Shown here: piece after piece, positions 22,648-27,556 of the stretch
How the letters are laid out: each line of letters begins with the position of its first letter
How positions within the stretch are numbered: position 1 is the first letter of the stretch
Source: an uncultured Ignavibacteria bacterium
GTDB taxonomy: Bacteria; Bacteroidota; Ignavibacteria; Ch128b
DNA length: 43,481 nt
Assembly (NCBI GenBank): GCA_937944105.1
Contig: CALDZP010000049.1
Location: forward strand, 1-43,481
Direction: 5' to 3'
Program-made: the position numbers and the translations under genes
The notes under the pieces: model-generated
Databases searched by the model: none
The model's input: only the letters and a program-made list of their open reading frames with translations
Told to the model about the DNA's origin: nothing

Positions 22648-22975
22648 GAATCTTTTTAATCAATCTATTGATATTATCAACATAATCAAGTGTATCATCA
22701 TAAAAAAAAGAAAGTTCGGGTATTCGTCTGATTTTTATTCTCTCAGCGAGTTTAGAACGGAAATGTCCTTTGGCATGGTTTAGTTTTTCAAGAGTAATCT
22801 TCCTTTTATCCTGATCAAAAATAGAGATATAAATTTTTGCATTTTGCAAATCACCAGAAACTTTGACAGAAGTAATAGTAACAAATCCTAATGCTGGGTC
22901 ATTTGTTTCACGTAATAAAATCATGCTTAATTCTTTTTTAATCAACTCAGCAACTTTTTCAATTCTTACCGACAT
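22619..22975 (-). CDS. rbfA: Ribosome-binding factor A
   Basis: The 118-residue product has the RbfA KH-like fold. The start is VRIEKVAELIKKELSMIL. Family features are DPALGFVTITSVKVSGDLQNAKIYISI and RIKIRRIPELSFFYDDT. RbfA helps late 30S maturation at the 5' end of 16S rRNA. The gene overlaps infB by 17 bases upstream and truB by about 29 bases downstream. Confidence 0.95.
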   Translation of the reverse strand: MSVRIEKVAELIKKELSMILLRETNDPALGFVTITSVKVSGDLQNAKIYISIFDQDKRKITLEKLNHAKGHFRSKLAERIKIRRIPELSFFYDDTLDYVDNINRLIKKIHEDDNKQNN

Positions 22976-25751
22976 TTTCCAATGTTCTTTGCTTTTCTAC
23001 AACTTTAAAGGCTTCAATTATGTCACCAACTTTAATATCATTAAAGTTGGCAATTTTAATACCACATTCTTTATGTGCGTCAACTTCTTTTACATCATCT
23101 TTAAATCGTTTCAAGCTTTCAATATCGCCAGTAAAGATTACAATTCCTTCACGAACTATTCTCACTTTATTATTTCTTTGAATTTTACCGTCCTTAACAT
23201 AACATCCAGCGATTGTACCAAATTTAGATATTCTAAATACTTCTCTCACCTCAACAGTACCAGTAATTTCTTCTGAAATTTCTGGTGCGAGAAGACCAAG
23301 GATAGCATTCTTGATATCGTTAATTGCGTCATAAATTATATTATAAAGTCGAATTTCAATTTTCTCTTTTTCTGCAAGTTTACGTGCTTCAAGATTAGGA
23401 CGAACATGAAAACCTAAAATAATTGCATCTGAAGCCATTGCAAGGTTAACATCAGTTACTGTTATAGCTCCCACTCCTCTATGAATAATATTTATTTTAA
23501 CTTCTTCATTTGATAGTTTCAATAAAGCATCTGATAGTGCTTCTACAGAGCCATCTACATCCCCTTTAACAATTAAGTTTAATTCTTTTACTTCTCCAAG
23601 CTTTGCGCTTTTCGCAATATCTTCAAGAGTAATGTGTTTAACACTTCTTAATTCCTGTTCTCGTTTGATTTGCATTCGTTTTGTAGCGATATCTTTAGCT
23701 ATTTTTTCTGATTCAACACAAATAAACTCATCACCGGGCTGAGGCTCCTTATCAAAACCAAGAATCTGAACAGGAGTTGAAGGTGGAGCTTCAGAGATAC
23801 GATTCATTCTCTCATCGTACATTGCCCTAACTCTACCATAAGCAACACCCGCAACAAATGGATCGTTTACTTTCAAAGTTCCTTTTAATACCAGAACATT
23901 TCCAACAATTCCTTTACCTCTATCTTTTTCAAAATCAAGAACATAACCACGTGCTTTTCTATCGGGATTTGCTTTAAGATCAAGAAGTTCTGCTTCAATC
24001 AAAATTTTTTCCAAAAGAACATCAACCCCCTGACCGGTTTTTGCTGAAATTTCAACCGACTGATATTTACCACCGTATTCTTCCACCAATACATTTTTAT
24101 CTGCAAGTTGTTGACGAATTCTTTCTGGATTTGCGGTGGGTTTATCAATTTTATTAATTGCTACAATGATTGGAACACCTGCCGCTTGTGCGTGATTGAT
24201 AGCTTCAACTGTTTGAGGCATAACCGAATCATCTGCTGCAACAACAAGCACAACTATATCAGTAACTTTTGCGCCACGTGCACGCATCGCTGTAAATGCT
24301 TCGTGACCTGGAGTATCAATAAAGGTTATTTGTTTTCCATTTGGTAATTCAACTTTATAAGCGCCAAGGTGTTGTGTAATTCCGCCAGCTTCACCGGCAA
24401 CAACCTGTGTGTTTCTAATGTAATCAAGTAATGAAGTTTTACCATGGTCAACATGTCCCATAATTGTCACAATAGGTGGTCTAGGTTTAAGTGTTTCAGG
24501 CAAATCTTGCTCATCATCAATAACAGTAATAGCCTCGTCCATAAATTCTACTGTAAAACCGAAATCATCGGCTATTAACTGAATCGTATCTTTATCCAGT
24601 CTTTGATTAATTGAGGCAACAATTCCATAAGATGTTAGTAATTTTTTAATAACCTCTGAAACAGAAACATTCATAAAATTTGCTAATTCTCCTACCGTTA
24701 CAAATTCAGTAACTCTCAATACTGTCTTTTCTTTCTCTAAAATTTCTTCCTGTTTTTTTAATTCCTCAAGTCGCTCTTTTTTCTTTTTCTTTCTGAGTGC
24801 AGCCCTTACTGAAAGCCCTGAATCGTCCATTGCTTCCAATGTTTTACGAATGCTCGTTTCAATTTCCTTTTCATCTATAATTTTTATTTTGCTCTTTTTG
24901 GCTTTCTTTGCTATCGTTGACTCTTCTTCAACTATCTGTTTTTTCTTTAAAACTTCTCTTAATTGTTTCTTCTTTGGTTTTTTCTTCTTTTTCTTTTTAT
25001 TTTTTGTCTCATCTTCCTCTTCTGTAGTCTTAACAACCTCTACAGGTTCTTCTACAATTTCTTCAGCTTTTTCTTTGCCTATATCTATTTTACCAAGTAC
25101 TTTTGGACCTTTGAATTGACCTTTGATTTCATCTAAAGAGGTATGTGCCTTCTCAGTTTTTGTTACTAATTCAGTTGATTTTTCCTCGACTAATTCTTCT
25201 GTTATTACAGGTTCTTTTAGTGGTTGAGTTTCTTTATCCGGTTCACCACTTTCGGAAATTGTTTCTCCTGATTCTTTTACCTCCTCTAAGGTTGGTTCAA
25301 CTCTTTCTGTGATTATCGGTGTCTCAAGAATTGTTTGACCCGATGTTGTGATTAATTCTTCTTGAGGAGTTTCAATTTTTCCTTTCGATATATCAAATTC
25401 TTCGATTACCTCTTTGGTTGTACTAACTTCCTCCGAAACTTTTTCTATTTTTTTGTCACTTCTTATGGAGAAAGAATCAGTTTTTTTATCTTTAGATTTT
25501 GTGGTTTTTTCGTCTTTTTTAGATCCTCTTAATTCAGCTAACTTTTTATCTTTTGTCTGAGCTGATTGCCATTCTTTCTTAAATTTTTCTAAAACTTTAT
25601 TATATGCGTCTTCATCGATTTTTGAAGCATGAGATTTTACTTCAAGGCCAAGTTCTTTTTTCAAAAATTCAATAACTCTTTCAACCGAAACATTTACTTC
25701 TTTAGCTACTTTAAAGACTTGATATGTTTTTTTGTTTTCTTTTTCAGACAT
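22959..25751 (-). CDS. infB: Translation initiation factor IF-2
   Basis: The product is 930 residues. Residues 1-60 look like the small IF2 N-terminal helix-turn fold (VFKVAKEVNVSVERVIEFLKK). Residues about 60-340 form a low-complexity, Lys/Glu-rich linker including a run of seven lysines near 252-258. A second IF2_N-like segment lies at about 345-400. The GTPase has GHVDHGKT (432-439), DTPGHEAF and NKID, followed by the C-terminal initiator-tRNA-binding domains. It delivers fMet-tRNA to the 30S subunit. Long charged linkers of this kind are usual in IF2. It begins 17 bases after nusA. Confidence 0.97.
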   Translation of the reverse strand: MSEKENKKTYQVFKVAKEVNVSVERVIEFLKKELGLEVKSHASKIDEDAYNKVLEKFKKEWQSAQTKDKKLAELRGSKKDEKTTKSKDKKTDSFSIRSDKKIEKVSEEVSTTKEVIEEFDISKGKIETPQEELITTSGQTILETPIITERVEPTLEEVKESGETISESGEPDKETQPLKEPVITEELVEEKSTELVTKTEKAHTSLDEIKGQFKGPKVLGKIDIGKEKAEEIVEEPVEVVKTTEEEDETKNKKKKKKKPKKKQLREVLKKKQIVEEESTIAKKAKKSKIKIIDEKEIETSIRKTLEAMDDSGLSVRAALRKKKKKERLEELKKQEEILEKEKTVLRVTEFVTVGELANFMNVSVSEVIKKLLTSYGIVASINQRLDKDTIQLIADDFGFTVEFMDEAITVIDDEQDLPETLKPRPPIVTIMGHVDHGKTSLLDYIRNTQVVAGEAGGITQHLGAYKVELPNGKQITFIDTPGHEAFTAMRARGAKVTDIVVLVVAADDSVMPQTVEAINHAQAAGVPIIVAINKIDKPTANPERIRQQLADKNVLVEEYGGKYQSVEISAKTGQGVDVLLEKILIEAELLDLKANPDRKARGYVLDFEKDRGKGIVGNVLVLKGTLKVNDPFVAGVAYGRVRAMYDERMNRISEAPPSTPVQILGFDKEPQPGDEFICVESEKIAKDIATKRMQIKREQELRSVKHITLEDIAKSAKLGEVKELNLIVKGDVDGSVEALSDALLKLSNEEVKINIIHRGVGAITVTDVNLAMASDAIILGFHVRPNLEARKLAEKEKIEIRLYNIIYDAINDIKNAILGLLAPEISEEITGTVEVREVFRISKFGTIAGCYVKDGKIQRNNKVRIVREGIVIFTGDIESLKRFKDDVKEVDAHKECGIKIANFNDIKVGDIIEAFKVVEKQRTLENVGKN

Positions 25752-25768
25752 AAATTTCCTGATAAATT

Positions 25769-27019
25769 TTATTCTTCAAATCCTTCTTTCAAGATAGTGA
25801 AAATTTCTGCAACTTTTTCGTCATCAAATCCTTCTATCTCTTTTATTTTTTCTTTACCAGCTTTCAAAACATCGATTGCTGTATCGTAACCAGCTTCAAT
25901 TAATTTTTGATATACTTCTTCTCCCAATTCTTGCTTAAAGTCAATTAACTCAATATCAATTTCATATTCCTCAATTGGTTTTTCTTCTCTTATTACATCG
26001 ATATCGTAACCTATTAATTTACCAACCAATCTAATGTTTTGGCCACCACGACCAACGATCAGAGAAACCTGATCAGCATCAGCCCAGATAATTGCTTTTT
26101 TATTTGCTTCGTCAATTTCTACTTTCTTCACTTTAGCAGGGTAAAATGCTCTTTTTAAGAATTGTTCTTTATCATCATACCATGGAATAACATCAATGCT
26201 CTCATTATTCAATTCTTTTACAATAGAATTTATTCTGACTCCTTTCATTCCAACACAGGCACCAACAGGGTCAATTCTTTCATCATTAGATACGACCGCA
26301 ACTTTTGCTCTTTCTCCTGGTTCTCTTGCTATTGCTTTAATTTCAACAATACCATCGTATATTTCGGGTATCTCCATTTCAAATAAACGCGCTAAAAACA
26401 TATTGTCAGCACGAGAAATTATTATTTTTGGTTCTTTCTTCTCTTTTATAACTTCTTTGATAACAGCACGAATTACATCTCCTTTTCTGTACTTTTCTTT
26501 TGGAATTTGTTCCTCTCTTGGAAGAATTAATTCGTTCTTATTATGATTTACAAGTATTTCATCTTTTCTAATTTGATAAATATCACCGACAACAATTTCA
26601 CCAACCTTCTGAGAATATTCTTTGTAAATAATATCTTTTTCAATTTCTCTCAGTTTTTGATTGAAAAGTTGCTTAGCTTGATTAATTAATCTTCTATCAA
26701 AAACATCGCCAAATTCTTTCACATCTATTTCTTCTGGATATATATCTCCGATTTCAAATTCTTCGTCTGTTTTCTTTCTTACTTCATCAATTGAAATCTG
26801 TGTCTTTGGATCTTTTACTTTTTCGACAATTTCTTTTTCAAGAAAGATTTGAATTTCGCCTCTTTCAAGATTTACTATAATTTCGAATTTAACTTTATCA
26901 CCAAATTTTTTTTTCATCAACGCTGTAAAGACTTCTTCAAATACTCCCACGAGTATATCTTTATCGATTCCCTTACCTTTAACAAGCTGGCTAAATGCTT
27001 CGACTATTTCTTGACTCAT
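25769..27019 (-). CDS. nusA: Transcription termination/antitermination factor NusA
   Basis: From the ATG at 27019 (preceded by AGAGG) the product has 416 residues. It contains the NusA N domain (1-about 135), an S1 domain (about 140-205, EIVVGDIYQIRKDEILV), KH1 (GACVGMKGVRINSI, 253-266) and KH2 (VGRGGQNIRLVG, 322-333). A helix-hairpin-helix tail ends EIEGFDDEKVAEIFTILKEG. A GTG at 27034 would overlap the rimP stop and lacks a ribosome site. NusA binds RNA polymerase and modulates pausing and intrinsic termination, relevant because a terminator hairpin precedes this operon. Confidence 0.96.
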   Translation of the reverse strand: MSQEIVEAFSQLVKGKGIDKDILVGVFEEVFTALMKKKFGDKVKFEIIVNLERGEIQIFLEKEIVEKVKDPKTQISIDEVRKKTDEEFEIGDIYPEEIDVKEFGDVFDRRLINQAKQLFNQKLREIEKDIIYKEYSQKVGEIVVGDIYQIRKDEILVNHNKNELILPREEQIPKEKYRKGDVIRAVIKEVIKEKKEPKIIISRADNMFLARLFEMEIPEIYDGIVEIKAIAREPGERAKVAVVSNDERIDPVGACVGMKGVRINSIVKELNNESIDVIPWYDDKEQFLKRAFYPAKVKKVEIDEANKKAIIWADADQVSLIVGRGGQNIRLVGKLIGYDIDVIREEKPIEEYEIDIELIDFKQELGEEVYQKLIEAGYDTAIDVLKAGKEKIKEIEGFDDEKVAEIFTILKEGFEE

Positions 27020-27030
27020 ATTAGAACCTC

Positions 27031-27486
27031 TCACCTAAATTTTATTAGAGTTTTTGCTTTAATAATATCTGAAAAATTTATTTCTAAAACTTTACCTCTA
27101 TCATCAAATACCAATTTATCATCCACAACATCTTTGAGAATCATCTCCTTTGTCATTGTCTTATCATCTATTCTATATGTAACAGAAAAGTATTTATTTT
27201 TATGTTTTGGATATTGTCTTAAGAATTTTAAGGGTCTATCGACCCCGGGCGACGAAACTTCTATCTGATCTTCTGGAGAAATATAATTTTCATCAACCAA
27301 AATTTTTTCAAGTTCTCTACTTATAATCGAACAGTCATCAATGGTCACATAAGTATCTTTGTCGATATAAAAAGTATATTTATAGACGTTTTTAATCTTT
27401 GAATAATTCAAATCAATTAAATACGCTCCAAGTTCATTAAGAATCGGTTCGATTCGAGTTTTTATTTTACTTATTAATTCAATCAT
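27031..27486 (-). CDS. rimP: Ribosome maturation factor RimP
   Basis: From the ATG at 27486 the product has 151 residues, the normal RimP length. Matching segments are ELGAYLIDLNYSK, YVTIDDCSIISRELEKIL and VSSPGVDRPLKFLRQY (the family's 'vSSPGldRpL' motif). RimP is needed for 30S maturation. The frame is open further upstream to a TTG at 27528, but that extension would translate the terminator hairpin and overlap the candidate promoter, so I reject it. There is no Shine-Dalgarno sequence: the 12 bases before the ATG are the terminator U-tract and ATCT. Confidence 0.92.
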   Translation of the reverse strand: MIELISKIKTRIEPILNELGAYLIDLNYSKIKNVYKYTFYIDKDTYVTIDDCSIISRELEKILVDENYISPEDQIEVSSPGVDRPLKFLRQYPKHKNKYFSVTYRIDDKTMTKEMILKDVVDDKLVFDDRGKVLEINFSDIIKAKTLIKFR

Positions 27487-27490
27487 AGAT

Positions 27491-27515
27491 AAAAAAAATT
27501 GCCCATTAAGGGCAA
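27491..27515 (-). terminator. Intrinsic terminator / attenuator directly before rimP
   Basis: On the minus strand TTGCCC-TTAAT-GGGCAA is a perfect 6-bp G+C-rich stem with a 5-base loop, followed at once by eight T residues, then ATCT and the rimP ATG. It is the clearest intrinsic terminator in the window. It could end sprA transcripts, attenuate the rimP operon, or both. Confidence 0.82.
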
Positions 27516-27527
27516 CATTGTTACACA

Positions 27528-27556
27528 ATAATACGGATAATTAAAGAGTTATTCAA
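27528..27556 (-). promoter_or_regulatory. Candidate promoter for the rimP operon
   Basis: On the minus strand TTGAAT (27551-27556), a 17-base spacer and TATTAT (27528-27533) resemble a sigma-70-type promoter. The start of transcription would fall near 27520, so the RNA would open almost directly with the terminator-like hairpin. In A/T-rich DNA such matches also occur by chance. Confidence 0.4.

Follow-up and report, generated by a model that had tools for sequence, protein, structure and literature searches.

A conserved hairpin and T-tract at the head of the rimP-nusA-infB operon suggest a promoter-proximal attenuator in Bacteroidota

Results

A promoter-like box, a hairpin and a T-tract stand directly before rimP

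The DNA analysed here (the window, 43,481 nucleotides of contig CALDZP010000049.1) comes from a genome of the class Ignavibacteria, the closest named relative of which by RimP is 'Ignavibacteria bacterium isolate SKW60' (75% identity, same genus). On its minus strand, rimP (27031..27486) is the first gene of an operon in which nusA (25769..27019), whose product is the candidate sensor, is followed by infB (22959..25751). Pfam searches confirmed the identities that the initial annotation had given to these three genes and to rbfA, truB, ribF and pnp, and the start position of RimP agrees with that of its relatives.

Read along the minus strand, the region upstream of rimP consists of a promoter-like sequence, TTGAAT-17 nt-TATTAT, which includes the -7 box TATTATTG (27526..27556); a 9-nt spacer; the terminator hairpin GTTGCCC-TTAAT-GGGCAAT (27498..27516); a tract of eight T (27491..27498), seen in the sequence and in the pattern scan; and the four bases ATCT, after which the rimP ATG begins (27486-27484). 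The whole element through the rimP start reads TTGAATAACTCTTTAATTATCCGTATTATTGTGTAACAATGTTGCCCTTAATGGGCAATTTTTTTTATCTATG. The hairpin was found by pattern scan (7 bp, 4 GC, loop of 5) and is backed by folding and by covariation across 153 genomes, and the promoter-like sequence by pattern scan and by phylum-wide enrichment of the box. TTGAAT-17-TATTAT (27556-27528) scores 9 out of 12 in the pattern scan, and TATTATTG (27533-27526) departs at a single position from TAnnTTTG, the -7 box of Bacteroidota. Both the hairpin with T8 four bases before the ATG and the promoter-like sequence just upstream were thus where the initial annotation had placed them. The missing Shine-Dalgarno sequence, which it had also pointed out, is indeed absent at rimP, but this is unremarkable because 13 of the 24 window genes tested lack even a loose one.

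Within the window itself, the hairpin ranks second among the terminator-like sites in 12 kb and its isolated stem folds with -10.3 kcal/mol, while folding of the 91-nt stretch gave a z-score of only -1.8. Taken from the window alone, the evidence for the element would be modest, because terminator-like sites in the scanned 12 kb number 11 against 5.8 expected and promoter matches do not exceed chance (47 found vs 51.7 expected).

Two coding interpretations of the region were considered and rejected. If RimP began at the TTG at 27528, its N-terminus would run through the hairpin, but this extension is unconserved and its frame is closed inside the hairpin in L005; a leader peptide overlapping the hairpin (ATGTTGCCC...TGA) lacks its ATG in the close relatives L002 and L003. 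A phage search using the leader DNA returned no match.

The element is kept upstream of rimP across nearly the whole phylum

The search covered the DNA upstream of rimP in 153 genomes from over 40 families of Bacteroidota and used a fixed criterion (at least 5 stem pairs including 3 GC, a loop of 3-10, at least 6 T in 9, within 150 nt). A hairpin followed by a T-tract was present in 123 of the 153 genomes, against 7.5 expected from dinucleotide shuffles of the same DNA, and therefore its occurrence before rimP is not due to chance. Under a relaxed criterion applied to a larger region the count rose to 148 of 153, against 15.9 in shuffles, with some of these calls doubtful (families f4 and f11). 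As a control, ORFs were scored within 100 nt upstream in 20 stretches of Bacteroidota DNA, each of 20 kb; such a site preceded 18 of 248, of which 9 were rimP, leaving about 4% of other genes. Comparison of these genomes indicates that the element is kept across nearly the entire phylum, so that the hairpin and U-tract expected in the upstream DNA of relatives turned out to be conserved far beyond the close ones. In family f24 (e.g. L037, L038, L052) the NusA branch is very long, at 2.4 changes per column, and rimP nonetheless has a leader hairpin, GTGGGG..CCCCAC, before it.

In the relaxed-criterion set, the end of the T-tract lies a median of 15 nt from the first in-frame start codon. In 108 of 148 genomes the 60 nt preceding the stem contain a box resembling TAnnTTTG, compared with 60 in shuffles, and the distance of this box from the stem peaks at 10-19 nt. 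Since the box is enriched before the stem and the T-tract lies close to the start codon, the promoter would be located upstream of the hairpin, and the leader of the mRNA, counted from the predicted start site, would be mostly hairpin.

The stem sequence is free while pairing is maintained

The relaxed-criterion set contains 61 different 5' arm sequences. The arm is TTGCCC in the window's family, TAGCCCG in f3, f9 and f12, TCGCCC in f10 and f42, GTCCCG in f40 and f43, GTGGG in f16, f22, f24 and f27, GAGGGGAC in f28, f33, f35 and f36, and GTGAG in f30. Even within one class the arms can be swapped (GCCC..GGGC vs GUGGG..CCCAC). Because of this swapping, the hairpins could not be aligned in register by plain MAFFT, and pairing was therefore tested by exchange of arms: with the T-tract alone as anchor, the bases preceding it, or those of another family put in their place, were tested for pairing with the genome's own upstream sequence. 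Own arms paired in 103 of 136 genomes and foreign arms in 12%. This indicates that the sequence of the stem varies by lineage with its pairing preserved, and since both the sequence and the order of the arms change freely, it argues against sequence-specific recognition of the stem.

Where rimP is missing or located elsewhere, the element precedes nusA

RimP is a maturation factor of the 30S subunit. In two families of the window's class, f13 (G020, G029, G038, G047, G160, G195, G205, G219 and G223) and f18 (G150, G187, G201 and G240), the RimP N-terminal domain was not found in any of the 13 genomes, which are up to 100% complete, nor was there a match above threshold to the C-terminal domain, and no space for rimP is left between the leader and nusA. 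All 13 genomes carry a promoter-like box, a hairpin and a T-tract before nusA. In f13 the block CTATATTTG...GACGCTCC-TAAA-AGCGTC-TTTTTT is almost invariant, and the nusA start codon follows about 100 nt later. The f18 stem, TGGGCT..AGCCCA, matches that of f7, a sister family with RimP in which this stem stands before rimP. In four genomes of f11 (genera g19 and g37), rimP lies apart and has no leader of this kind; directly preceding nusA in them is a CAGACTTT..AAAGTCTG hairpin followed by a T-tract, so that the same arrangement is found before nusA in 17 genomes overall. Since f13 branches apart from both f18 and f11 in the NusA tree, at least two separate events are likely. An exception is genus g13 of f11 (L207-L209, L211, L213, L214). 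Most of its genomes have rimP and nusA at unlinked sites, no clear promoter-hairpin leader was found at either gene, and before nusA the order seems to be reversed, with the hairpin ahead of a conserved promoter-like stretch.

A further observation concerns the f13 leaders. Between promoter and hairpin, L193, L196, L199, L201-L204 and L206 contain ATG-TTT-ATG-x, often followed by a stop codon. This short frame is largely conserved, being absent or altered in L197 and L198, and might represent a leader peptide or chance.

Judged from these gene arrangements, which amount to a natural experiment, the element appears to belong with nusA and not with rimP. Loss of rimP leaves the element in place, which disfavours RimP as the sensor, and the element's staying before nusA adds support to NusA in that role.

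Discussion

NusA stimulates hairpin folding and intrinsic termination. We therefore consider, with moderate confidence, that the element is a promoter-proximal intrinsic terminator whose efficiency would be set by NusA, providing feedback on the nusA operon. From the anatomy described above we infer the start site, the termination event and the response to NusA as follows. RNA polymerase would start at about 27520, the hairpin would begin at about +5 and the U-tract would end at about +30; a part of the polymerases would then release an RNA of about 30 nt and the remainder would continue into rimP-nusA-infB. In a leader that is essentially the hairpin alone, no alternative antiterminator fold appears to fit, and the fraction reading through would thus have to be set by a factor acting on the polymerase or on the hairpin. 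The likeliest factor is NusA: more NusA would increase termination, and this in turn would lower NusA, which suggests that the protein limits its own production through an early end of transcription. The feedback attenuator proposed in the initial annotation is in this respect strengthened by the conservation of the hairpin, by the upstream box and by the persistence of the element before nusA, all tests at the level of sequence. Against this reading, weak terminators are typical NusA substrates, yet the leader stems (median -9.6 kcal/mol) did not come out clearly weaker than 3' terminators in these genomes (median -10.9 kcal/mol, p = 0.18), and genus g13 of f11 seems to lack the arrangement.

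Any signal that is read at the start of the nusA-infB operon would also fit the association with nusA. A promoter-proximal terminator or pause that serves as an attenuator for a signal other than NusA (translation initiation, IF2, NusG or a nucleotide level), or as an unregulated throttle, is in our judgement rather unlikely. With the start codon so near the U-tract a ribosome could compete with termination, f13 has its short conserved ATG..stop between promoter and hairpin, and infB remains in the same operon; against this, no leader peptide is conserved across families, survival of the element after rimP loss speaks against RimP as sensor, and a specific binder would have to act without a conserved sequence.

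The hairpin might also be a 5'-terminal mRNA stabiliser or translation element, with the U-tract as a landing site for the ribosome (S1-like) and no termination involved. A leader made mostly of hairpin and U-tract beside the start codon would suit such a role, as would the small number of Shine-Dalgarno sequences in Bacteroidota, but we regard it as improbable: a GC-rich stem with a short loop and an immediate T-tract is the combination of an intrinsic terminator, the T-tract is as rich as those at real 3' ends (7.8 vs 7.1 T in 9), and the f13 copy lies too distant from the nusA start for a start-site element. Very improbable, in our view, is a plain terminator of the upstream gene, with transcription of rimP depending on readthrough or on a promoter at another place. 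In the window this gene is sprA, which is codirectional with rimP and has its stop codon about 145 nt upstream of the stem, and the hairpin could stop readthrough from it. However, the element stands at the operon head in over 40 families and after rimP loss, a promoter would not fit into the few bases that usually separate U-tract and start codon, enrichment of promoter-like boxes is seen on the upstream side of the stem, and hairpins with a T-tract are scarce before other genes.

The preferred reading, a terminator set by NusA, has close precedents. The initial annotation mentioned premature terminators upstream of rimP in Gammaproteobacteria; they are in fact known more widely, the rimP-leader being described as the most ubiquitous attenuator (Naville and Gautheret 2010, PMC2965389), with occurrences in Firmicutes, Gammaproteobacteria and others. 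As outlined there, it is a premature terminator heading rimP-nusA-infB, 4-130 nt before the start codon, which in its general form has no visible antiterminator, NusA being the best candidate sensor, and it is marked by a 5' arm that is G-rich and conserved, GGGc..gCCC (PMC2965389). The window likewise has a hairpin and U-tract upstream of rimP in a rimP-nusA-infB operon, but its stem, TTGCCC..GGGCAA, has a C-rich 5' arm and departs from this motif. G-rich 5' arms are present in other Bacteroidota families; unlike in the rimP-leader, arms in this phylum vary and swap, and the element can precede nusA in the absence of rimP. Rfam scans at gathering and permissive thresholds detected no known RNA at the locus; RF01770 'rimP' had no match there, and a direct search of G000 and relatives with it gave sub-threshold matches elsewhere only. 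We therefore file the window element as a probable variant that would work like the rimP-leader and falls outside the Rfam model and the published arm motif.

In B. subtilis, NusA regulates its own gene by stimulating termination in the 5' leader of nusA (reviewed in PMC12288461), and the likeness would lie in an intrinsic terminator of the 5' leader that controls entry into the nusA operon. The B. subtilis rimP (ylxS) leader is given as about 180 nt (PMC2965389), whereas in the window only a few bases would separate the predicted start site from the hairpin. Compared with a leader of that type, the hairpin and U-tract are present, the promoter is predicted from motif and distance, and no alternative fold appears to fit. 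Within the phylum, the transcriptome map of Flavobacterium psychrophilum reports that rimP is preceded by a structured 5' element, which other Flavobacteriaceae share and which has no Rfam match (PMC9723704). That element shares phylum and gene with ours; in the account of it in that map it is given for one family, without a mechanism and unlinked to nusA (PMC9723704). Set against these descriptions, the kind of device is already known, and what the present comparison adds is its phylum-wide extent, the exchange of arms, the short distance to the predicted promoter and the association with nusA.

Feedback by NusA at a terminator has been reported for one Firmicute and suspected elsewhere, and the present comparison extends its anatomy to nearly a whole phylum, one that has its own promoter type and makes little use of Shine-Dalgarno sequences. 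The retention of the element with nusA upon loss of rimP separates the candidate sensors. Tentatively, and as something we hold possible rather than probable, the element may be a minimal attenuator of phylum-wide distribution, composed of promoter, hairpin and U-tract, that senses NusA through the polymerase and not through the RNA sequence; its stem could then be rewritten and its arms swapped, with its place before nusA being required even where rimP has been deleted. Any hairpin of suitable strength at this position should then support the feedback.
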